Notes under the pieces: generated by a model
What the model saw: the letters and a program-made list of their open reading frames with translations, nothing else
The model's database searches: none
Told to the model about the DNA's origin: nothing
Position numbers and translations under genes: made by a program
Assembly: GCA_030619885.1 (NCBI GenBank)
Contig: JAUXAN010000013.1
Coordinates: forward strand, 1 to 54,667
Source: a bacterium
GTDB taxonomy: Bacteria > Hydrothermota > DG-26 > JAUXAN01
Direction: 5' to 3'
DNA length: 54,667 bases
Shown here: positions 287-54,630 of the stretch, one piece after another
Numbering within the stretch: position 1 is the stretch's first letter
Layout: every line of letters begins with the position of its first letter

Positions 287-314
287 TTGACGGATTTTAA
301 AAATATGCTACAAT
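287..314 (+). promoter_or_regulatory. Sigma-70 type promoter giving a leaderless start
   Basis: TTGACG at 287-292, a 16-base spacer and TACAAT at 309-314. The predicted +1 is about seven bases downstream, at position 321, which is the G of the GTG start codon of the next gene. No Shine-Dalgarno sequence is present. Confidence 0.65.
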
Positions 315-320
315 AATCGT

Positions 321-1286
321 GTGAAAAATATCGAGGTAATAACCTGTGAAGAGAGATATAGACAGAGATGGGATAAATTTGTGGACTATGCCAATAATGG
401 CACTATCTTCCATAAGCTAAAATTTTTGGACTACCATCCACTAAATAGACTTAAATTTCATCATTTAATCTTTCGTGAGTACGGCAACATATTAGCCCTA
501 CTGCCTGGAGGACTTGCAGATAGAATATTCAAATCTCCACAGGGAGCAAGTTTTGGCAGTTTCGTAATGGGTGAACTCTCTTTTGATAAAATCGATAGAA
601 TCGTCCAGAGTTTCCTTAAATATTGTGAAGAGGAAGGTATAGAAGAGGTTTACCTGACACCTCCACCGATAATTTACTCGAAGGTTACGAGTATGAATTT
701 AGATTATGCCCTTCTCTATAATGGATTTAAATATTCTCAACATCTCTACACGAGTGTAATTGACCTCACCCCTATCACAGACCCATTTGAAATATGTCAG
801 GAAAGGTCGAGAAATGCTGTAAGGAAGGCGATTAAGTCGGGTGTCAGGATAGAGATAAGCGAGGATTACGACAGTTTTTATCCAATCTTGGTGGAGAACA
901 AACGCAAATTTAATGTATCTCCAACGCATACCCTTGAAGAATTAAAAAAAATCCCAAATCTCGTTCCGAAAAACCTCAAACTCTTTTTAGCGTACAGAAA
1001 GAAAAAACTACTCGCAGGATGCCTCATATTTATTTGCAATGTGAAAACTTTCATAGCATTCTATATAGCTCAGGACTACCGTTATCAGAGATACAGATCT
1101 GTCAACTATCTCTTGTATGAAATAATCAAATGGGGTAAATCGCAGGGTTTCAGTTACTTTGACCTTGGTGTGAATCAGGATACCGCTTCGGATAATCCAA
1201 TGGAACTTAACCGTACTCTAATCTCATTCAAATCAAGCATGGGTGCAAAGTGTTTCTTGAGAAGCACATTCTATAAAAAGATTTAA
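321..1286 (+). CDS. FemAB/GNAT-like acyltransferase (Acetyltransf_6 type)
   Basis: A 321-residue protein resembling FemAB-related GNAT proteins (peptidoglycan cross-bridge or exopolysaccharide-linked aminoacyl/acyl transferases). The recognisable part is the C-terminal half: a segment with RSRNAVRKAIKSG around residue 165, then alternating strands and helices with the acceptor-loop pattern FYIAQDYRYQRYRSVNYLLY and the end motif YFDLGVNQ near residue 285. No signal peptide or membrane segment is seen, so it should be cytoplasmic. The GTG start at 321 is chosen because it coincides with the predicted transcription start. The gene stands alone and is convergent with tRNA-Pro/pcm. The family assignment is from sequence character; the substrate is unknown. 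Confidence 0.7.
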   Translation: MKNIEVITCEERYRQRWDKFVDYANNGTIFHKLKFLDYHPLNRLKFHHLIFREYGNILALLPGGLADRIFKSPQGASFGSFVMGELSFDKIDRIVQSFLKYCEEEGIEEVYLTPPPIIYSKVTSMNLDYALLYNGFKYSQHLYTSVIDLTPITDPFEICQERSRNAVRKAIKSGVRIEISEDYDSFYPILVENKRKFNVSPTHTLEELKKIPNLVPKNLKLFLAYRKKKLLAGCLIFICNVKTFIAFYIAQDYRYQRYRSVNYLLYEIIKWGKSQGFSYFDLGVNQDTASDNPMELNRTLISFKSSMGAKCFLRSTFYKKI

Positions 1287-2027: not shown

Positions 2028-2777
2028 TCAAAACTTTTTTTGAAAATCTTTTTCCCACCTTTTAATTCTTTTTATTGCTTTATGGTTAGTAAGGTCTAAA
2101 TGGAGTGGGGTAATGGAAACGAGTCCCTTCTCTATTGCATCGAAGTCTGTATTTTTGCCCTTCTCCCATTCGAGTTCTCCATCTATCCAGAAATATGGTT
2201 TTCCGTTATGGTCCACTCGCTCTTCGGCATAGTCTTTATATATCCTCTTTCCCAACTTCGTTATCTTAATCCCCTCTAATTTTTCCCCATCTGGTATATT
2301 CACATTCAAAAAAGTCTCCGGTGGCAGACCAATTTTACATATCCTTTGCACGAGTGCAGCAGCAAATTTCGCTGAAGCAGAAAAGTCGAATCTGTGTTCA
2401 GATACCAGAGAGACCGCTACAGATTTTATGCCCAGAAGTGTTCCTTCCATTGCCGCTGCAACAGTTCCAGAATAGAGAACATCGTCTCCAAGATTCGGTC
2501 CGTGGTTTATTCCTGATACGATTATATCAGGACGTCTCTTTAAGATTCCCCGAACAGCAAGAATTACACAATCTGTAGGAGTACCATCAACACTTATTTC
2601 GGTAGATGAGATATTCTTAAATCTTAATGGATGAGTTAAAGTGAGTGAATGGGATGAAGTGCTCTTTTCCTTATCAGGAGCAACTACAAAAACATCGCAA
2701 ATTTTCTCTAATCCATCTTTTAATTTTCTTAAACCTTTTGCGGATATTCCATCATCATTCGTAAGTAAAACGAGCAT
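2028..2777 (-). CDS. surE: 5'/3'-nucleotidase SurE
   Basis: Metal-dependent phosphatase acting on nucleoside monophosphates. The 249-residue length fits the family. The N-terminus MLVLLTNDDGISAKGL carries the metal-binding NDDG motif. Further family motifs are VVAPDKEKSTSSHSLT near residue 35 and VSGINHGPNLGDDVLYSGTVAA near residue 87 (conserved Asn and SGTV segment). It lies 28 bases upstream of pcm and 32 bases downstream of glgA on the same strand, so the three genes and tRNA-Pro probably form one transcript. Confidence 0.95.
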   Translation of the reverse strand: MLVLLTNDDGISAKGLRKLKDGLEKICDVFVVAPDKEKSTSSHSLTLTHPLRFKNISSTEISVDGTPTDCVILAVRGILKRRPDIIVSGINHGPNLGDDVLYSGTVAAAMEGTLLGIKSVAVSLVSEHRFDFSASAKFAAALVQRICKIGLPPETFLNVNIPDGEKLEGIKITKLGKRIYKDYAEERVDHNGKPYFWIDGELEWEKGKNTDFDAIEKGLVSITPLHLDLTNHKAIKRIKRWEKDFQKKF

Positions 2778-2809
2778 CGTATCTATTGTAGTATATTCCT
2801 ATAGATTTG

Positions 2810-4246
2810 TCAAGAGGGCTGTTTACTCATTCTCTTATACAGTTCATTATATGTCTTTGCTGCTGTGTCTAAGGTATGTCTCTCAGACATCGCATTTTTA
2901 GTTAATTTTCTCCAGACTTCCGCTGCTTTATATACGAACACTGCCTTCTTTACTGCCGAAACCAGTTCATTGGCAGAATATTTTTCAAAAACAAAACCAT
3001 TACCCTTTAGGGTCTTGGGGTCAAACTCTGTTATCTTCTCTAAGAGTGCCCCTGTTTTTCTCACTATTGGAATACTACCGTATCGGAGGGCAATTAGACT
3101 TGATAAACCAGAGGGTTCATATTTTGAAGGCACAAGGAATATATCAGAACCTGCATATATACGACAGGCAAGTACAGGGTCAAATTTTATATTGACAGAA
3201 GCCTTTCTCGGATAAGATGCGCTTAATTTTGCCAACCTTTTAGTAAATCTTTCCTCACCAGTTCCCAATAACACAAACTGCAATTCTTCTTTCATCAGTT
3301 CATTAATGGCACCAAGTAGTATATCAACACCCTTATAGGTATCCAGTCTGCACACCATTCCAATCAATGGGACATCAACATTATTCAATTTAAGCTCTCT
3401 GCGAAGGATGGTTTTATTTACCCTTTTTGTGATGATACTGTGGGTGTCGTAATGTTCATATACATAGGGGTCTATCTTTGGGTTCCACACATCATAATCT
3501 ATTCCATTTGAGATGGCACAGATATTGGCACTTCTTGCCCTCAGAATTTCGTCGAGCCCACACCCAAATTCCTTCGTTCGCATCTCCTCACCATAAGTTT
3601 CACTGACAGTTGTTATGATATCCGAAAATAGTATCCCGCCTTTGGCAAAATTTACCTTTCCATAATATTCCAATTCTAACAGATCCAATCCAAATCCACT
3701 GGCTATATTTTTATCAAATACACCCTGATAGCCCAGATTATGAATGGTATAGATTACTTTTGTATTTGCAAAGATTGGGTCGTCATTGAAGATTACTTTT
3801 AAATACACTGCGACTGGAGCAGTCTGCCAGTCGTTTAAGTGTATAACATCGAACTTCATCGATAGATATTTTGACATAAATAAGCAGCCTTTGCAAAAAG
3901 CTGCAAATCGTTCACAATTGTCTGGATAATCACCTTCTTCTGTTCCATAAAGTCCATCCCTGGTAGAAAATTCGTCCGCATCGAAAAAGAATACTTTCAT
4001 TCTTTCACCCGCATCATATTCAAACAGTTTGAAGACTTTCTTCTCCCACTTAAATGGCACTCCGAGAGTTTGTAAAACAGGACGAAGTTTTAAATTTTGG
4101 TCTTTTGTTACTTTATACAGGGGGGTAGCAAGATAGACTTCAGTGCCGAGTTTACTGATGGCTTTAGAAAGACCACCTATAGTATCTGCAATGCTACCCG
4201 TTTTCGCGTAGGGATAGATTTCGGGACTGACTATTAAAATCCTCAT
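2810..4246 (-). CDS. glgA: Glycogen/starch synthase (ADP-glucose type, GT5)
   Basis: Elongates alpha-1,4-glucan from ADP-glucose in glycogen synthesis. At 478 residues it is full length for GT5. The N-terminal Rossmann lobe begins MRILIVSPEIYPYAKTGSI. The catalytic C-terminal motif reads FLVPSKYEPSGLSSLIALRYG near residue 375 and matches the usual E-PxG-L pattern. The sugar-nucleotide loop normally written KxGGLAD is KTGSIAD here, so the second conserved Gly is replaced by Ser while Lys is kept. First gene of the operon; a promoter with predicted +1 about three bases before the ATG means it has essentially no 5' UTR and no Shine-Dalgarno sequence. Confidence 0.92.
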   Translation of the reverse strand: MRILIVSPEIYPYAKTGSIADTIGGLSKAISKLGTEVYLATPLYKVTKDQNLKLRPVLQTLGVPFKWEKKVFKLFEYDAGERMKVFFFDADEFSTRDGLYGTEEGDYPDNCERFAAFCKGCLFMSKYLSMKFDVIHLNDWQTAPVAVYLKVIFNDDPIFANTKVIYTIHNLGYQGVFDKNIASGFGLDLLELEYYGKVNFAKGGILFSDIITTVSETYGEEMRTKEFGCGLDEILRARSANICAISNGIDYDVWNPKIDPYVYEHYDTHSIITKRVNKTILRRELKLNNVDVPLIGMVCRLDTYKGVDILLGAINELMKEELQFVLLGTGEERFTKRLAKLSASYPRKASVNIKFDPVLACRIYAGSDIFLVPSKYEPSGLSSLIALRYGSIPIVRKTGALLEKITEFDPKTLKGNGFVFEKYSANELVSAVKKAVFVYKAAEVWRKLTKNAMSERHTLDTAAKTYNELYKRMSKQPS

Positions 4247-4255
4247 ATAGTCTAA

Positions 4256-4284
4256 ATATTAATTAAAATTTATATTATGTCAAG
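4256..4284 (-). promoter_or_regulatory. Promoter of glgA operon, near-leaderless
   Basis: Read on the minus strand: TTGACA (4284-4279), a 16-base spacer and TAATAT (4261-4256). Predicted +1 is near 4249, three bases from the glgA ATG at 4246. The consensus match is good and there is no ribosome binding site. Confidence 0.65.
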
Positions 4285-4493: not shown

Positions 4494-4521
4494 TTGACTT
4501 TTTGTTCGTGGAATTTATTTT
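4494..4521 (+). promoter_or_regulatory. Sigma-70 type promoter, leaderless GTG start
   Basis: TTGACT at 4494-4499, a 16-base spacer, TATTTT at 4516-4521. The predicted +1 is at 4528-4529 and an in-frame GTG starts at 4529. This placement selects GTG 4529 over the longer reading frame opening at 4502, which would lie upstream of the RNA start. Confidence 0.55.
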
Positions 4522-4528
4522 TTGTTGG

Positions 4529-5890
4529 GTGAAGTGGAAGATATTTATAGTCCTTTGTATCATCGTTCTGTGCATAACTTTTCTCTATCTCTTTTTAAGA
4601 ACCCCCACATTGCATAGAAGTATAAAATATACAGAACAGATCGTTCCTGATGGATGTTCTTTTTATGTGAACACAAAATTACCGTTGTCTATCTACGAAG
4701 AGGTAGCAAAACTCAAAATCAGAGAGAATACAAGAGATATAGAAATAGTTAAATCCTTAACAAAAAGAATCGATGAACTTGGTATTGGAGAAAGATTAGC
4801 CGAGCTCGTTGGAGATGAAATTGGAATCGCAAAGTATGAAGAGGAATATCTGATTATAACTAAACCTTCTATTAAAATCAGACTTTTGTGGAGAGAGGCA
4901 CTTAAAAAAGGTCATAGAAAGAAATATAGAAAGACCCCGTATAGTAGAATTAAAACAGACTTGAACTGTCTCTTCATAGGTAACTACATCTGTTTTAGCA
5001 ACAGAGAATCTCTCATTAAAGAAGTTATCGAATTGGGAAGGGGATACAAAAAGACCTCGCTGAGAGATAAAATAGTTCCCTCTGAAGATGCTTGTCTGTA
5101 TGGATATGTGGCTAAAGGTAACAGTTGGGTCGATTTCGAGTCTTTGGAGTTTGAAGTATTTAAGAAAGAAGAAAACAGTTTAGTGCTCAAGTTTAATATG
5201 AAAAAGCCCGTTGGTATCATTCCTGCTGGACTTGGAAAAGAAGGTGTAGAGAAACCTCTTTTTCTTCCTTCTTCAACCGTAAGTTTCATCAATTTTCCCA
5301 ACTTCGATTTCAGTAGTAGTTTTGAATATATGAATAGAGAGAATCCTAAGAAGATAAGAGACATTGTCAGGGAAAGCGGAGTGAATCTGTCCGGTTTTTT
5401 TGCAAATTTAAAAAAGCGTCTTCTTCTATATACTGAAGGATTCAATTCAGAAGATATACCTATGGTCTGTGGGATAATTACAGTAGAAGACCCAGATAGG
5501 ATGGATAAAAAAATCAAAGAATTGTCGTACTGGTTTTTCAAAAAAAGCAGAGGTCCAAAAAATTTGTCCGGATATGGTAAAGGGATAAACTATATTATGA
5601 ACCCTGAAGGTATACCTGTTCTTGCGTATACATTTTTTAAAAATGACCTCATAGTTTCAACATCTCTTCCACTGCTCAAATCAACGGTGAATACCTATTC
5701 AGGAAAGGAAGAAAAAATGAAATTCGAGGGAAATTTCGTCCCAAATATCTATCTCAATTTTAACAATCTGCTTGCCCTTATAAGAAAATATTTTAATTAT
5801 GCAGTGAGTGATAGTTCAAGAATAAAAGAGATAGTCTGTACTGTTAATCGAACTGAAGGAATCGAGGGAAAGATTTTGATAAATTTTTAA
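4529..5890 (+). CDS. Membrane-anchored protein of unknown function
   Basis: A 453-residue protein beginning with one hydrophobic anchor (about residues 4-23) and otherwise soluble, so most of it is predicted outside the cytoplasm. After the anchor comes a region starting EQIVPDGCSFYVNTKLPLS that resembles the opening of DUF3352-type proteins, but I cannot assign the family securely. Charged, strand-rich sequence continues to the end with no catalytic motif that I recognise. The GTG start is chosen from promoter position. It is monocistronic as far as can be seen. The strong AAAGGAGG just after its stop precedes only a six-codon frame, suggesting that a downstream partner has been lost. Confidence 0.6.
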   Translation: MKWKIFIVLCIIVLCITFLYLFLRTPTLHRSIKYTEQIVPDGCSFYVNTKLPLSIYEEVAKLKIRENTRDIEIVKSLTKRIDELGIGERLAELVGDEIGIAKYEEEYLIITKPSIKIRLLWREALKKGHRKKYRKTPYSRIKTDLNCLFIGNYICFSNRESLIKEVIELGRGYKKTSLRDKIVPSEDACLYGYVAKGNSWVDFESLEFEVFKKEENSLVLKFNMKKPVGIIPAGLGKEGVEKPLFLPSSTVSFINFPNFDFSSSFEYMNRENPKKIRDIVRESGVNLSGFFANLKKRLLLYTEGFNSEDIPMVCGIITVEDPDRMDKKIKELSYWFFKKSRGPKNLSGYGKGINYIMNPEGIPVLAYTFFKNDLIVSTSLPLLKSTVNTYSGKEEKMKFEGNFVPNIYLNFNNLLALIRKYFNYAVSDSSRIKEIVCTVNRTEGIEGKILINF

Positions 5891-6570: not shown

Positions 6571-6598
6571 TTGACAATATTTTTGTTATTCTTACAAT
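6571..6598 (+). promoter_or_regulatory. Sigma-70 type promoter for lipoprotein/LysM operon
   Basis: TTGACA at 6571-6576, a 16-base spacer and TACAAT at 6593-6598. It gives a leader of roughly 47 bases that contains a strong AAAGGAGGTGA, unlike the leaderless units elsewhere in the window. Confidence 0.65.
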
Positions 6599-6651
6599 TA
6601 TCTAAGTATGTAAGTTAAAAAAATCTTTACTAATTAAAGGAGGTGAAGACG

Positions 6652-6885
6652 ATGAAGAAGTTTATATCTATTGCTTCCCTCTTTGTCTTCGTCGCAGGTT
6701 TTATCTTTTCTGGGTGTGCAGTAAAGGGAGTGACACCAGAAACCCAGAAGGAACTCGATGAAGCAAAGACTGCCTGTGAAGCTGCGGAAGATGAAGCAAC
6801 TTCACTTGAAAATGAACTCAAAAATTTAGAAGCTGAAAAAGCAGATAAGGAAGCAAAATTAGAAGAGCTGAAGACAGGGGGGTGA
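6652..6885 (+). CDS. Small coiled-coil lipoprotein
   Basis: A 77-residue protein. The N-terminus MKKFISIASLFVFVAGFIF is a signal peptide followed by the lipobox FSGC, so Cys about residue 21 should be lipidated and the protein anchored in a membrane. The mature part is a heptad-rich helix (ELDEAKTACEAAEDEATSLE and following), resembling Lpp-like or SlyB-adjacent coiled coils in style only. The ATG at 6652 is chosen because AAAGGAGGTGA sits seven bases upstream; the GTG at 6643 lies inside that site. It is co-transcribed with the LysM protein that follows 40 bases later, suggesting both act at the cell wall or envelope. Confidence 0.8.
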   Translation: MKKFISIASLFVFVAGFIFSGCAVKGVTPETQKELDEAKTACEAAEDEATSLENELKNLEAEKADKEAKLEELKTGG

Positions 6886-9670: not shown

Positions 9671-10246
9671 CTACCTCTCCACAAAACCCTTCGGAAGTGT
9701 CAATGATTTTTTGATCAATTCTTCAAGGGTTGCATCTTTACCTAAAAGCCTGGATGCCTCTTTCACAGCTTTTGATGCCTCTTCCCGTCTATATCCGAGT
9801 GTGAGCAGAGCCGATATCGCCTCAGTGTATGGAGTCTTCGGTTTTCCCTTCAAAATTAACTTGCCTTTTAACTCGAGCACGACCCTCGATGCTGTTTTTC
9901 TACCCACCCCTTTCGCCGCACAGATTCTGTCAACATCCCCAGAGGATACGGCATCATTGAACTCATCGATTGACATAGAAGAAATTATCCCAAGAGCGGT
10001 CTTTAATCCAACACCTGATACAGATATTAACAGTTCAAATAATTCTTTTTCTTCAGGTGTTGAAAAGCCATAAAGTTCCAATCGGTCATCATGAAGGGCA
10101 AGGTGGATATAGAGCATCTCCTCTTCCGCTGTCAATTTTTCATAAGTTGACAGCGGTATCTTTATCGAGTATCCAACACCGCCCACATCGAGCGTCACAG
10201 CCGTTGGTCTTTTCTCCACAACCTTGCCTTTGATATACGAGAACAT
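9671..10246 (-). CDS. ruvA: Holliday junction DNA helicase subunit RuvA
   Basis: Binds four-way junctions and loads RuvB. 191 residues: an N-terminal OB fold ([20 protein letters not shown]), a helix-hairpin-helix region with [17 protein letters not shown] near residue 73 and [20 protein letters not shown] near residue 108, and a C-terminal RuvB-binding domain ([19 protein letters not shown]). First gene of the operon. TATAAT on the minus strand at 10262-10257 puts +1 about four bases before the ATG, again a near-leaderless unit, although the -35 box is poorly placed. Confidence 0.96.
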
Positions 10247-10309
10247 ATATTTTTAGATTATAAAAAACAGAGTCAAGGTCAAGTAAAATCTTGCCTTCGG
10301 CAAAATGCT

Positions 10310-10861: not shown

Positions 10862-11135
10862 TGTGAAAACACCCATACGGGTCGTATGACCAAATGACAC
10901 CCAAACTACCGAAATATCAAGGGATTATAAAAACTATGATTGAAACAATAGACACTGATTTACACTGATGGCCACAGATTATAAAAAGAATATTCAATCA
11001 GTGAATATCTGTACATTCCATACGGTCACAGACCCGTATGGGATGCTGTGCAACGGATCTTGAGATGTTAATCTGTGTCTAATATACTTCTTGTCTTTCA
11101 GTGATTTTCGGTGTTTAATGTATAATCTGGGATTA
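10862..11135 (+). repeat. Composite repeat region upstream of argS
   Basis: Left: GAAAACACC then CATACGGGTCGTATGACC (10874-10891) then AAATGACACC; the same outer repeat at 14701 lacks the palindrome. Middle: blocks of ACTGATTTACACTGATG and CAATCAGTGAATATCTG, then CCATACGG at 11018-11025 and CCCGTATGGG at 11033-11042 followed by ATGCTGTGCAACGGATC. Right: CAGTGATTTTCGGTGTTTAA and TATAATCTGGGAT (11100-11133), shared with 14836-14865. No gene in 10856-11140. Confidence 0.7.
11121..11126 (+). promoter_or_regulatory. TATAAT box within repeat end, upstream of argS
   Basis: A perfect TATAAT lies in the right end of a dispersed repeat. No good -35 is seen at 17 bases. Predicted +1 near 11133 leaves an eight-base leader before the argS GTG start, with no Shine-Dalgarno. 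An identical box in the same repeat stands upstream of the gene at 14887. Confidence 0.45.
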
Positions 11136-17085: not shown

Positions 17086-17114
17086 TTGACAAAATCTGCC
17101 CAAATTGGTATACC
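17086..17114 (+). promoter_or_regulatory. Promoter of the polysaccharide export operon
   Basis: TTGACA at 17086-17091, 17-base spacer, TATACC at 17109-17114. Predicted +1 near 17121, two or three bases before the ATG at 17124; no Shine-Dalgarno. Confidence 0.6.
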
Positions 17115-17123
17115 TATTATGTA

Positions 17124-17906
17124 ATGTTAGCATATCTGGAAGAATTGGTAAACCACCGAGAACTACTCCGTAGTTGGGTTTCAAGAGAGATAAAGGTTAG
17201 GTATAAACAAGCTGTATTGGGTATAGGGTGGGCAGTCCTTCAGCCACTTGCGATGATGCTGATATTTACAGTAGTCTTCTCTTACTTCAACAAAATTCCA
17301 ACCGAAGGGATACCTTACCCTATCTTTTCCTACAGTGCACTCCTCCCATGGGTCTTTTTCTCAAATTCTATCTCCTTCGGAACCACGAGTCTGGTGCGTA
17401 ATATGAATTTGGTCACCAAAATATATTTCCCTCGAGAAATACTCCCCTTTGCCTCTTTAATTGCAAGTTTTATAGATTTTCTCGTTGCCTCGGTCATATT
17501 TGTCTTTTTAATGATATACTATAAAATTGCACTCTCTACTTCGCTTTTCTGGATTCCTGTTATTCTCATCGTTCAAGTCATTTTCAGCCTGGGAATACTT
17601 CTTCTGGGTTCTGCGCTGAATGTTTTCTACCGCGATATCAGGTTCATTATCCCGCTTGTGCTCCAGATATGGCTCTTCCTCTCACCCATAATCTACCCGG
17701 TGAGTTTAGTTCCCAATAGGTACAAAACTCTTTATATGCTCAATCCAATGGCATCTATCATTGACTCTTACAGGAGGTCCATTCTTTTCGGAAAGAGTCC
17801 CCAACTCAACTTTCTTTTAATTACAACAATAGTAGCAATAATCTTATTTATTCTTTCTTACCGGTTTTTTAAAATTAAAGAGAAGGTATTTGCCGATATA
17901 ATTTAA
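17124..17906 (+). CDS. Polysaccharide ABC exporter permease (Wzm-like, ABC-2)
   Basis: A 260-residue ABC-2 family permease that with the next gene exports a lipid-linked polysaccharide across the inner membrane. It has the N-terminal amphipathic segment LRSWVSREIKVRYKQAVLG and six hydrophobic helices; the family motif GWAVLQPLAMMLIFTVVFS follows near residue 35 and FLSPIIYPVSLVP near residue 190. The ATG at 17124 is selected because it sits at the predicted transcription start; the longer frame from 17043 begins within the -35 region. First of ten overlapping genes. Confidence 0.93.
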   Translation: MLAYLEELVNHRELLRSWVSREIKVRYKQAVLGIGWAVLQPLAMMLIFTVVFSYFNKIPTEGIPYPIFSYSALLPWVFFSNSISFGTTSLVRNMNLVTKIYFPREILPFASLIASFIDFLVASVIFVFLMIYYKIALSTSLFWIPVILIVQVIFSLGILLLGSALNVFYRDIRFIIPLVLQIWLFLSPIIYPVSLVPNRYKTLYMLNPMASIIDSYRRSILFGKSPQLNFLLITTIVAIILFILSYRFFKIKEKVFADII

Positions 17907-37603: not shown

Positions 37604-38033
37604 GGACGCAGATTCTCATGATTTTAAATATAAAGATATAACCGAAAAAATCATCAAGGCTTTTTACCAAGTATATAATACACTCGGCTATGGATTCTTG
37701 GAAAAAGTGTACGAGAATGCAATGTTAATAGAACTGAAAAAATTAGGTCTTACTGCTATTCCACAGTCTCCGATCAAAGTGTATTATGAAGAGCAAATAA
37801 TCGGGGAGTATCTTGCAGATATATTAATAGATGGAAAAGTAATAGTCGAGATTAAATCAGCAAAAAGTCTGGCGGAAGAGCATGAAGCACAATTATTAAA
37901 TTACTTGAAAGCAACTGATATAGAAGTCGGTTTATTACTGAACTTTGGTCCTAAACCAGAAATTAAGCGCAAGGCATTTGATAATTTGAGGAAGTAATAA
38001 TAAATCTGCGGTTATCTGCGTAAATCTGCGTCC
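37604..38033 (+). mobile_element. GxxExxY cassette 1 (terminal inverted repeats)
   Basis: A 430-bp unit with perfect 11-bp inverted ends: GGACGCAGATT (37604-37614) and AATCTGCGTCC (38023-38033). The right end has three tandem ATCTGCG units. It starts 12 bases after the pilin 1 stop and ends just before the pilin 2 regulatory region. It contains a single GxxExxY reading frame and almost nothing else. Confidence 0.65.
37617..37997 (+). CDS. GxxExxY family protein (PDDEXK-like), copy 1
   Basis: About 126 residues are encoded in one open frame from the cassette left end: HDFKYKDITEKIIKAFYQVY, then the family motif GFLEKVYENAM, PIKVYYEEQIIGEYLADILI, the nuclease-like KVIVEIKSAKSL (D-ExK arrangement), and LLNYLKATDIEVGLLLNFGP. 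No ATG exists before the motif; the first in-frame ATG is at 37698 (MLIELKK is preceded by MEKVYENA in another reading of the start), which would cut the conserved N-terminus, so a TTG/ATT start or a cryptic start must be assumed. GxxExxY proteins are uncharacterised; nuclease activity is inferred from fold predictions for the family. Confidence 0.65.
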   Translation, partial: HDFKYKDITEKIIKAFYQVYNTLGYGFLEKVYENAMLIELKKLGLTAIPQSPIKVYYEEQIIGEYLADILIDGKVIVEIKSAKSLAEEHEAQLLNYLKATDIEVGLLLNFGPKPEIKRKAFDNLRK

Positions 38034-44711: not shown

Positions 44712-44740
44712 TTGACAAGAAGTTAGTTTTTTTGTATATT
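44712..44740 (+). promoter_or_regulatory. Promoter of gmhA operon, leaderless
   Basis: TTGACA at 44712-44717, 17-base spacer, TATATT at 44735-44740. Predicted +1 at 44747-44748 coincides with the A of the gmhA ATG. No Shine-Dalgarno. Confidence 0.7.
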
Positions 44741-44747
44741 AAATAAA

Positions 44748-45317
44748 ATGAGGTTTATAGATCAGATTAATGAGGAAATAGAAGAGAGCATCAAAATAAG
44801 TGAAGATTTAATGAACATTACCTCTGAAATTTCGAAGGCTGTGGAACTTGTCTTAAAGACTTTCAAATCGGGTTGCAGGATATTTCTCTGTGGTAACGGT
44901 GGTTCTGCCGCAGACGCTCAACATATAGCCTGTGAACTGGTAGGTAAATTTCTGAAAATAAGGGATGGTCTTCCTGCAATAGCATTGACAACAGACACTT
45001 CTGTTATAACGAGTATATCAAATGATTTTGGTTATGATAAGGTATTTTCAAGACAGATTGATACACTTGGAAAAAAAGGTGATGCCCTTGTAGCAATCAG
45101 TACGTCGGGAAGCTCGAAGAACGTTTTACTTGCAGTGGATTGTGCAAAAAAACGACGGATGAACACTATAGCATTGACAGGCTGCGACGGTGGCGAACTC
45201 AAAAAGATGGTAGATATATCAATTGTGGTTCCCTCGTGTAAAACTCCAAGAATCCAGGAGGCGCACATAACTATAGGACACATACTCTCCAAAATAGTCG
45301 AGAGAGAGTTTTTCTAA
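44748..45317 (+). CDS. gmhA: Sedoheptulose-7-phosphate isomerase (phosphoheptose isomerase)
   Basis: Makes D-glycero-D-manno-heptose 7-phosphate, the first step to ADP- or GDP-heptose for surface glycans. 189 residues, one SIS domain: CRIFLCGNGGSAADAQHIAC near residue 43, LTTDTSVITSISNDFGYDKV near 84, VAISTSGSSKNVLLAVDCAK near 115 and C-terminal IQEAHITIGHILSKIVE with the catalytic His region. Full length. The donor could serve the GT9 enzyme at 25 kb. First gene of gmhA-ispE-spoVG-tRNA-Gln. Confidence 0.93.
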   Translation: MRFIDQINEEIEESIKISEDLMNITSEISKAVELVLKTFKSGCRIFLCGNGGSAADAQHIACELVGKFLKIRDGLPAIALTTDTSVITSISNDFGYDKVFSRQIDTLGKKGDALVAISTSGSSKNVLLAVDCAKKRRMNTIALTGCDGGELKKMVDISIVVPSCKTPRIQEAHITIGHILSKIVEREFF

Positions 45318-52335: not shown

Positions 52336-52847
52336 GGACGCAGATGAACCCCGTTAGAAAATTTGTTTATAAGTTGAAAGGAAATAATTCATTTGGTTTC
52401 CTCCTTTCTAACGGGGTGAACGCAGATTCTCAGGATTTTAAATATAAAGATATAACCGAGAAAATTATCAAGGCCTTTTACCAAGTCTATAATACACTCG
52501 GCTATGGATTCTTAGAAAAAGTGTACGAGAACGCAATGTTAATAGAACTGAAAAAATTAGGTCTTACTGCTATTCCACAATCTCCGATAAAAGTTTATTA
52601 TGAAGAGCAAATAGTTGGAGAGTATTTTGCAGATATATTAGTAAATGAGAAGGTAATAGTTAAGATTAAATCGGCAAAAAGTCTTACGGAAGGCAACGAG
52701 GCACAATTATTAAATTACTTGAAAGCAACTGATATAGAAGTCGGTTTATTACTGAACTTTGGTCCTAAACCAGAAGTTAAACGCAAGGCATTTGATAATT
52801 CAAGGAAATAGTAATAAATCTGCGTTTATCTGCGTAAATCTGCGTCC
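52336..52847 (+). mobile_element. GxxExxY cassette 3 with nested hairpin element
   Basis: A 512-bp unit with ends GGACGCAGAT (52336-52345) and, on the right, three ATCTGCG units finishing ATCTGCGTCC (52838-52847). Beyond this the right flank ATTAAAACATTTT is shared, reversed, with the flanks at 16770 and 41309. A 68-bp hairpin element (52349-52416, CCCCGTTAG...CTAACGGGG) is inserted three bases into the left end with a partial duplication (GAACGCAGATT), compared with cassette 1. Confidence 0.68.
52344..52811 (+). CDS. GxxExxY family protein (PDDEXK-like), copy 3
   Basis: A 155-residue protein. Residues 1-30 (MNPVRKFVYKLKGNNSFGFL and LSNGVN) come from the inserted hairpin element, which also provides the ATG. 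The remaining part is nearly identical to copy 1: FKYKDITEKIIKAFYQVYNT, GFLEKVYENAM, PIKVYYEEQIVGEYFADILV, KVIVKIKSAKSL, LLNYLKATDIEVGLLLNFGP. The ExK motif reads VKIK rather than VEIK, so the catalytic acidic residue is replaced by Lys, and nuclease activity may be lost. The repeat has in effect supplied a start codon that copy 1 lacks. Confidence 0.7.
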   Translation: MNPVRKFVYKLKGNNSFGFLLSNGVNADSQDFKYKDITEKIIKAFYQVYNTLGYGFLEKVYENAMLIELKKLGLTAIPQSPIKVYYEEQIVGEYFADILVNEKVIVKIKSAKSLTEGNEAQLLNYLKATDIEVGLLLNFGPKPEVKRKAFDNSRK

Positions 52848-52861
52848 TATTAAAACATTTT

Positions 52862-54595
52862 CTACTTGAATTTGTTTGTTATAGGCATCCTTCTTCCAAA
52901 ACCGAATGCTTTTGGGGTGATTTTTATCCCAATCGGTGCCTGCTTTCTTTTGTATTCGTTATGGTCGACCTTGTATATCACTTCCTCTACCATTTCTTTT
53001 TCAAAACCTGAATTTATTATCTCAACTTTGGTCTTATTTTCTTCGATATAGTGTTGCAAGATTGGATCTAAAATCTCGTATGGTGGCAGGTCATCACTGT
53101 CTTTCTGCCCTATCCTCAGTTCAGCAGACGGCTCTTTGTCCAGTATATTTTGGAGTATTATCTCCACTCCCGCAGGTCGTATGACAGATCGCCCATACGG
53201 GTTGTATGACAGACCCGTAATGGGATGCTGTGCATCGGTTTTATTTGTCTGATTGATATATCTTGCCAACTGATAGACCATTGTCTTTGGGACATCTGAA
53301 ATCACTGCCAGACCGCCGGCCATATCCCCATAGAGGGTAGCATATCCCACCGCCAATTCCGACTTATTGCCTGTTGAAAGAACCAGATGTCCGAATTTAT
53401 TTGATATTGCCATAAGAATATTTCCCCTTATCCTAGCCTGAATGTTTTCTTCTGTAGCATCACTTTTTCTGTTTTTAAACTCTTTTTTCAATGTGTTTAA
53501 ATATGAGGTGAATATTTCAGATATAGAGATTGTTTTACATTTCACTTTGAGATTTTTGGCAAGATTTTGTGCATCTTCCACGGAAGATTTTGAAGTTATC
53601 TCGCCCGGCATCAATACACACAGCACGCTATCCGCCCCCAGCGCTTCTACAGCGAGCGCCGTAGTCAGTGCAGAATCTATACCACCGCTCAAACCGATAA
53701 TGACATTTTGGAATCCGTTTTTTCTCACATAGTCTCTAATTCCGAGTACGAGGGCATCGTGAATATCTTTAATCAGATTCTCTTTTAAAATCACTTCCTT
53801 TTGCGATTCCAAATTAACAAGAGCAAAATCTTCCTCAAATCGCCTGCAATGAGCGATCAACCTTCCTTTTTTGTCAAAAACATAACTCCCCCCATCAAAG
53901 ACCAAATCGTCCTGTCCACCAATTAGGTTAACATAGGCTATGGGAACAGAATTCCCCCTTGCCCTCTTCGCAATCAACTCTCGCCTTATGTTACCCTTTC
54001 CTGCATAGAATGGGGATGCGGAGATATTCACTATGAAGTCAGCACCCTGTTTTGCCTGTCGCTCGGTTGGACCTTCGTCTATCCATATATCTTCACAGAT
54101 ATTTACCCCCATTTTAAGCCCGTCTACACTGAAGAGAGGAATATCCTTTACCGTTTCAAAATATCGGCTCTCATCAAAAACATCATAATTTGGCAGATGA
54201 GATTTGTAGTATTTACCTATCAGTTTGCCATTCTGGATAACAGCGGCTGCGTTGTAGAGTATCCTGCTTTCAGTATAAAAACGAGAAGAAATATCATAGA
54301 CATCTCGTGGAACTTTAGTTTCAGAAACATCTACAAACCCCACTACAATAGTAATCCCTTCTGATGCTTTTATGATTTCATCCAGTTTCTCTCTGTTCTT
54401 TTCTATAAAACTCGATTTTAACAGAAGGTCCTTTGGTGGATATCCAGTAATTGCCAATTCTGGAAAGACTACTAAATGGGCATTATGTTGTTTTGCTTTT
54501 TCAATAGCGTTAACAATTTTCTCTGTATTCCCATCTAAATCTCCGACAGTCGTATTTATCTGTCCTATTGCTATCTTATATTTGGATAAATTCAC
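52862..54595 (-). CDS. nadE: Glutamine-dependent NAD+ synthetase with in-frame repeat insertion
   Basis: Final step of NAD synthesis. 577 residues. N-terminal nitrilase-type glutaminase (LVVFPELAITGYPPKDLLLK with catalytic Glu, KSHLPNYDVFDESRYF with Lys, GVNICEDIW with Cys) and C-terminal ammonia-dependent synthase (GLSGGIDSALTTALAVEALG, P-loop; LSTGNKSELAVGYATLYGD). Between NQTNK and EIILQNILDKEPSAELR, near residues 452-476, lies TDAQHPITGLSYNPYGRSVI followed by RPAGV, encoded by copies of the palindromic element and absent from the family as I know it. The insertion preserves the frame next to a loop before the PSAELR motif. GTG start coincides with the predicted +1. Confidence 0.93.
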   Translation of the reverse strand: MNLSKYKIAIGQINTTVGDLDGNTEKIVNAIEKAKQHNAHLVVFPELAITGYPPKDLLLKSSFIEKNREKLDEIIKASEGITIVVGFVDVSETKVPRDVYDISSRFYTESRILYNAAAVIQNGKLIGKYYKSHLPNYDVFDESRYFETVKDIPLFSVDGLKMGVNICEDIWIDEGPTERQAKQGADFIVNISASPFYAGKGNIRRELIAKRARGNSVPIAYVNLIGGQDDLVFDGGSYVFDKKGRLIAHCRRFEEDFALVNLESQKEVILKENLIKDIHDALVLGIRDYVRKNGFQNVIIGLSGGIDSALTTALAVEALGADSVLCVLMPGEITSKSSVEDAQNLAKNLKVKCKTISISEIFTSYLNTLKKEFKNRKSDATEENIQARIRGNILMAISNKFGHLVLSTGNKSELAVGYATLYGDMAGGLAVISDVPKTMVYQLARYINQTNKTDAQHPITGLSYNPYGRSVIRPAGVEIILQNILDKEPSAELRIGQKDSDDLPPYEILDPILQHYIEENKTKVEIINSGFEKEMVEEVIYKVDHNEYKRKQAPIGIKITPKAFGFGRRMPITNKFK

Positions 54596-54601
54596 ATAAA
54601 C

Positions 54602-54630
54602 TCTATATTACTATTTTCTCAAAAAGTCAA
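54602..54630 (-). promoter_or_regulatory. Promoter of nadE, leaderless
   Basis: On the minus strand TTGACT (54630-54625), a 17-base spacer and TATAGA (54607-54602). Predicted +1 is the G of GTG at 54595. No Shine-Dalgarno. A CCGTATGG palindrome core lies further upstream at 54654-54661. Confidence 0.65.

Follow-up and report, generated by a model that had tools for sequence, protein, structure and literature searches.

Leaderless genes were reported in 207 of 953 bacterial genomes by Zheng et al. 2011 (PMC3160421), who describe them as clustered in Deinococcus-Thermus (mean share 39.4%), Actinobacteria (19.2%) and a few other groups, and as nearly absent from Bacteroidetes/Chlorobi, where 1 of 37 genomes had them, at 2.4%. 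A second source predicts leaderless transcription for 21.6% of bacterial species and attributes non-canonical AT-rich ribosome-binding sites (RBSs) to the FCB group (PMC9581028), and a third covers 14 bacterial phyla (PMC5397173). The layout described for Deinococcus-Thermus, a -10 box adjacent to the open reading frame (PMC12340547), is also the one that we find in the 54,667-nt stretch of DNA analysed here (the window) and across the genome it comes from.

Promoters and start codons in the window

The promoter-to-start units of the window are collected in Table 1. The promoter of the gene at 321 agrees with what a sequence-only reading of this DNA had claimed; it consists of TTGACG, a spacer of 16 and TACAAT, with six bases before GTG. 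Promoters were scored as matches to TTGACA and TATAAT minus a spacer penalty, with a maximum of 12; as a control, only 2 of 140 displaced positions upstream of eight of the scored genes reached 9 or more. The same reading had proposed eight leaderless units. Seven of them stand, although 4529 and ruvA are weaker: the start of 4529 is less sure because an in-frame TTG at 4502 lies within the promoter, and ruvA, which had been included 'more loosely', deserves that wording, with a perfect TATAAT but an ambiguous -35. The list was also incomplete, as it overlooked surE (TTGACA-N17-TACAAT-N7-ATG).

Table 1. Promoter-to-start units in the window, with the score of the best promoter abutting the start
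Unit	Interval	Strand	-35	-10	Score	Remark
GTG 321, GNAT/FemAB-like gene	287..323	+	TTGACG 287-292	TACAAT 309-314	9.5	abutting
ATG 2777, surE	2775..2813	-	TTGACA 2813-2808	TACAAT 2790-2785	11.0	abutting
ATG 4246, glgA	4244..4283	-	TTGACA 4283-4278	AATATT 4260-4255	10.0	abutting
GTG 4529, gene without Pfam family	4494..4531	+	TTGACT 4494-4499	TATTTT 4516-4521	8.5	weaker promoter
ATG 6652	6571..6654	+	TTGAC promoter at 6571			contrast, SD-led: leader, then AAAGGAGG before ATG
ATG 10246, ruvA	10244..10287	-	ambiguous	TATAAT 10262-10257	9.0	-10 ~10 nt before ATG
ATG 17124, ABC-2 transporter permease (wzm)	17086..17126	+	TTGACA 17086-17091	TATACC 17109-17114	10.0	promoter before start
ATG 44748, gmhA	44712..44750	+	TTGACA 44712-44717	TATATT 44735-44740	11.0	abutting
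GTG 54595, nadE	54593..54630	-	TTGACT 54630-54625	TATAGA 54607-54602	9.0	abutting

The eighth proposed unit, argS (GTG 11141), fails, as its score is only 6.0 and no TTGAC precedes its TATAATCTGGG. This TATAAT box lies in a short dispersed repeat with four copies in the genome sample described below, two of them in the window, and since the repeat carries a -10-like box, argS had been misread as a promoter case. The repeat, ttcggtgtttaatgNNtaatctggg, occurs at 11107 and 14841 of the window, at L008 2053 (minus strand) and at L078 548, a short way upstream of the starts of argS, 14887 and other genes. A separate observation concerns the genes at 37698-37997 and 52344-52811, which, by eye, have in common the stretch KAFYQVYNTLGYGFLEKVYENA or one very like it and are probably duplicates within one small family.

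No Shine-Dalgarno sequence (SD) was detected at 321, glgA, wzm, gmhA, nadE, ruvA or 4529; AGGAGG stands at normal spacing before all five genes for which a strong one had been claimed (6652, 6926, 13565, 38301 and 46652).

The promoters might abut spurious starts, with real translation beginning at an SD-led codon further downstream. Where close homologues are lacking, gene starts are indeed not fixed, and that of 4529 is uncertain. However, residue 1 of SurE aligns with residue 1 of several solved chains (5ksq, 1ilv), as does that of RuvA with 1ixr and 8gh8 and that of GlgA with 1rzu and 2qzs, while residue 2 of GmhA aligns with residue 2 of 1tk9. Aligned with their homologues from residue 1 or 2, these four proteins leave hardly any room for an overlooked downstream start. 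In addition, a strict SD-led candidate start was found in only 1 of the 58 leaderless-type cases of the genome sample, and we regard spurious starts as very improbable.

Promoter spacing and two classes of starts across the genome

The source genome (G000, 2,455,971 bases in 86 contigs, window included) was sampled at 57 loci, again including the window, which amount to 942,502 bases of the 2.46 Mb at a GC content of 39.5%. A simple purpose-written hexamer caller yielded 675 genes in this sample, and the gene starts used below rest on its calls. We defined a strict promoter-like site as TTGAC, 17-19 bases and TANNNT; 315 sites fitted, with 331 combinations of site and spacing. Measured from the end of the -10 box, the distances to start codons of called genes peak sharply at 6, 7, 8 and 9 nt (15, 22, 9 and 11 counts), fall to 4 counts at 10 nt and are at background level beyond. 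The 57 starts at 6-9 nt compare with 10.75 expected from a background of ~2.7 per position between 12 and 59 nt (Poisson p ~4e-23), and the test is conservative because that background includes true leadered genes. The first T of the -10 box thus lies 12-15 nt upstream of the start, in agreement with the ~12 bp of the TA-led class of Zheng et al. 2011.

The usual distance from a -10 box to +1 is ~7 nt. As +1 would fall at the 6-9 nt peak, the predicted leader is ~0-3 nt long. The frequent counts at 8, 9 and 10 nt (9, 11 and 4), which put +1 at 1-4 nt before the start, speak for short leaders of ~3-10 nt on which the ribosome would bind by other means than an SD. We nevertheless hold this unlikely, given that the mode at 7 nt coincides with the usual distance and that nothing above background is seen beyond 10 nt.

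A distance peak had been suggested as a check of the leaderless layout, and it appears when TTGAC is part of the pattern, but with TANNNT alone no clear peak emerged at the single-candidate starts of this AT-rich genome; only the test with both boxes is decisive here. When decoy words (CAGTT, GTTCA) replaced the -35, no start in the sample lay at 3-8 nt. Over the whole genome, the pattern ending in ATG had 182 matches, against 20 for the reversed and 92 for the displaced pattern, and the RTG pattern had 228 against 39 in the control, which by subtraction leaves 46 against 19 for GTG. AT-rich upstream DNA of low GC could by chance yield look-alikes of -35 and -10 boxes near starts, and the weakness of argS and 4529 as single examples, like the uninformative TANNNT, speaks for such an origin. 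For the class as a whole it is refuted by the reversed, displaced and decoy controls, by the lack of signal at operon-internal genes of this genome and by a peak in a relative with 52.7% GC (see below), and we give it almost no weight; for single genes it may apply.

By strict criteria 58 of the 675 genes (~9%) have leaderless-type starts (49 ATG, 8 GTG and 1 TTG), and 157 are SD-led, with GGAGG at 4-9 nt, through 163 starts (148 ATG, 6 GTG and 9 TTG). These two sets overlap in 1 gene. GTG had been described as frequent in the first class; it is enriched there (8 of 58 against 6 of 163 starts; odds ratio 4.2, p = 0.011) but belongs to a minority of the strict cases, so that 'often' was an overstatement. 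Two identical leaderless-type promoters with GTG starts, at G000:C24:3339 and 8116, lie 4.8 kb apart, which suggests duplicated genes. The fraction of T before the -35 was 0.49 for leaderless-type and 0.57 for leadered promoters, so a T-tract at this position is not special to the former and was rejected as their mark.

The two classes also differ in their position within transcription units. A same-strand neighbour at most 20 nt upstream was present for none of the 50 leaderless-type genes with a known neighbour, compared with 36 of 144 SD-led genes (p = 9e-6). We then built an independent promoter model from those promoters alone whose start lies at least 15 nt downstream, and applied it to genes that have one candidate start within their first 60 nt. 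At a threshold of 8, it classed as leaderless-type 18 of 102 unit heads, with 1.1 expected from displaced positions, and none of 76 operon-internal genes (Fisher p = 2.4e-5). Under a 90-nt rule the figures were 10 of 61 and 0 of 53. TTGAC stood at -38 to -34 before 10 of 63 heads and before none of 53 internal genes. Leaderless-type starts are hence those of single or operon-proximal genes only, as in the TA-led class. Their share of about a sixth of unit heads is a lower bound because only strong promoters are seen; many unit heads have neither signal. The genome-wide excess is far beyond chance, and 'common', as the leaderless design had been called, means about a sixth of unit heads.

The SD is not generally absent from this genome, as it would be in SD-less initiation of the FCB type. 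Among 213 single-candidate starts, its motifs are most frequent between -12 and -9 (75 counts), and the 3′ end of the 16S rRNA reads GGATCACCTCCTTTCT, with the anti-SD intact, so the two modes coexist. The abutting sites could also be secondary promoters, the main transcripts starting further upstream and carrying leaders. Such leaders would be without an SD in all but 1 of the 58 cases, although other leadered genes of this genome use one, and we consider this improbable.

We therefore conclude, with a probability of about 0.8, that this genome uses two modes of translation start, SD leaders and leaderless-type unit heads, as the sequence-only reading had proposed. The bases for this are the spacing of promoter and start, the absence of an SD, the restriction to unit heads, the four starts pinned by homology and the recurrence in relatives. 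Operon-internal genes and many unit heads would have leaders whose SD pairs with the intact 16S tail, and a sixth or so of unit heads, if not more, would have a housekeeping -35/-10 promoter with +1 on the start codon or ~3 nt from it. To judge by promoter geometry, the housekeeping RNA polymerase would begin at the start codon and produce a leaderless or nearly leaderless mRNA. By analogy with the leaderless-mRNA literature (PMC9031893), the ribosome, presumably in its 70S form, would bind directly to the AUG or GUG at the 5′ end.

Distribution in the phylum and its neighbours

We extended the analysis to 147 genomes of the phylum by counting whole-genome matches to the pattern with ATG 4-7 nt behind the -10, using the reversed pattern and a displaced one (19-22 nt) as controls. 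In total, the test pattern matched 17,136 times, the reversed one 1,779 times and the displaced one 7,651 times; since the displacement is a real leader length, the ratio to it understates the excess over chance. The test exceeded the displaced control at p < 1e-3 in 86 of the 147 genomes (78 after Bonferroni correction) and was not significant in 61. Ratios of 2.4-4.3 mark the strong families f20, f10, f13, f30, f25, f5, f18 and f36, of which f10 and f20 contain genomes that are almost complete. There was no excess over the displaced control in the same-class genomes G004 and G010 (families f2 and f3; 52 against 63, ratio 0.83, and 34 against 33, ratio 1.03), and little or none in f27, f31, f29, f19 and f12. 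In f27, f31 and f16, TTGAC promoters are scarce altogether, which makes the test nearly blind in those families. The 254,012 bases taken as a negative control from an f31 genome (G083, L176-L195) held 20 promoter-like sites with no starts behind them, and with so few sites this absence may reflect other promoters; f31, f27 and f16, where TTGAC-N17-TANNNT is almost absent, may use another promoter type.

In 400,000 bases and 302 genes of an f20 genome at 52.7% GC (G042), the peak lies at 5-8 nt (16, 14, 8 and 6 counts), and the starts at 4-9 nt are 42 ATG, 9 GTG and 1 TTG. The same peak at this base composition shows that low GC is not the cause.

The mode was also followed gene by gene. For nadE, a script recognized the leaderless-type layout at 7 of 30 loci (the source genome and 6 of 29 relatives). 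At L098, L099 and L106, from the f20 genomes G042, G082 and G078, it reads TTGACA...TATACT...GTG, again with a GTG start. By eye, a -10-like box just before the start is also visible at L100, L112, L115, L116, L118 and L119, which fall outside the script's criteria and are not counted. At L112, L115, L116 and L119, a box that is GGCACACTATAA-like or similar follows TTGACA after ~20 nt and ends directly ahead of ATG, a spacing that differs from the standard one. For surE the layout was found at 1 of 30 loci, that of the source genome, and in none of the 29 relatives, in many of which the gene seems, by eye in the upstream text and without a count, to lie close behind another gene. These figures do not support the idea that each gene conserves its leaderless state; the mode looks more like a habit of the genome as a whole, one that goes with where promoters lie. 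That S1, the ribosomal protein, had been lost was rejected as the reason for the mode, as rpsA was found in 59 of the 60 genomes searched, including the source genome and strong families; matches passed the curated cut-off in 19 of 60, a rate as low as that of the named controls (2 of 14).

An ArgS tree, built on 63 rows after two short ones of the 65 had been dropped, places the phylum beside Cloacimonadota and KSB1, which are usually counted on the FCB side. Test and reversed counts in four Cloacimonadota genomes (12/12, 15/42, 21/53 and 14/7) and in an Elusimicrobiota genome (28/19) are near, below or little above the controls. Two KSB1 genomes are somewhat above (66/24 and 62/46), and so are two other outgroups, another bacterium (25/9) and a Nitrospirota genome (31/12). 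In Portnoybacteria, a 0.7-Mb genome (G109, behind L041) had 29 matches against 2 reversed, and this lineage may also use leaderless starts. Further afield, one 50-kb stretch of E. coli held no strict promoter-like site, and a D. deserti plasmid gave 2 matches against 2 in the control, TTGAC probably not being the -35 there; neither is therefore informative as a control.

Comparison with known leaderless systems

The mechanism itself is known, and the lineage is apparently unreported for leaderless starts: a literature search on leaderless starts in WOR-3, a guess at the GTDB name of the phylum, found no paper, and further literature listings include none on this lineage. The chances seem to us evenly balanced that the whole phylum, near Cloacimonadota/KSB1, starts a large share of its units without a leader, alongside a working SD system and S1, from full -35/-10 promoters and not from bare -10 boxes, the mode having been lost or gained repeatedly from family to family; no other phylum on the FCB side of the bacterial tree would then have been found rich in leaderless genes before it. 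Annotation is affected, as a start codon without an SD, sometimes GTG, may lie directly behind a promoter. Leaderless starts are also described as altering the response of genes to some antibiotics (PMC9581028, PMC3160421). Its families differ, while the source genome has an intact 16S tail and S1 is found almost throughout; the phylum is thus well suited to the question of why a lineage takes up or gives up the leaderless mode.

Leaderless starts in Mycobacterium and other Actinobacteria use AUG and GUG. As reported for that group, leaderless genes here stand beside SD-led ones and have a -10 close before the start; those accounts concern high-GC genomes and an experimentally mapped transcriptome (PMC3898074, PMC3160421), whereas ours is a low-GC uncultured genome with evidence from sequence only. 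Deinococcus-Thermus, as described in PMC12340547 and PMC3160421, is alike in having a -10 a few bases before the start, no SD, SD-led genes alongside and some GTG starts. Its promoters are mainly -10 motifs, to which an added -35 raises expression, and its leaderless share is ~30-39%. Here, in contrast, the cases found have a clear TTGAC -35, which is also part of the test used, and the strict test puts the share at 58 of the 675 called genes (~9%). Cloacimonadota and KSB1, the neighbours of the phylum in the ArgS tree, lead to a comparison with the Bacteroidetes/FCB group (PMC3155529, PMC9581028); the genomes of that group are described as mostly without SD and with AT-rich leaders, whereas in the genome studied here the SD is used and leaderless-type starts are frequent.
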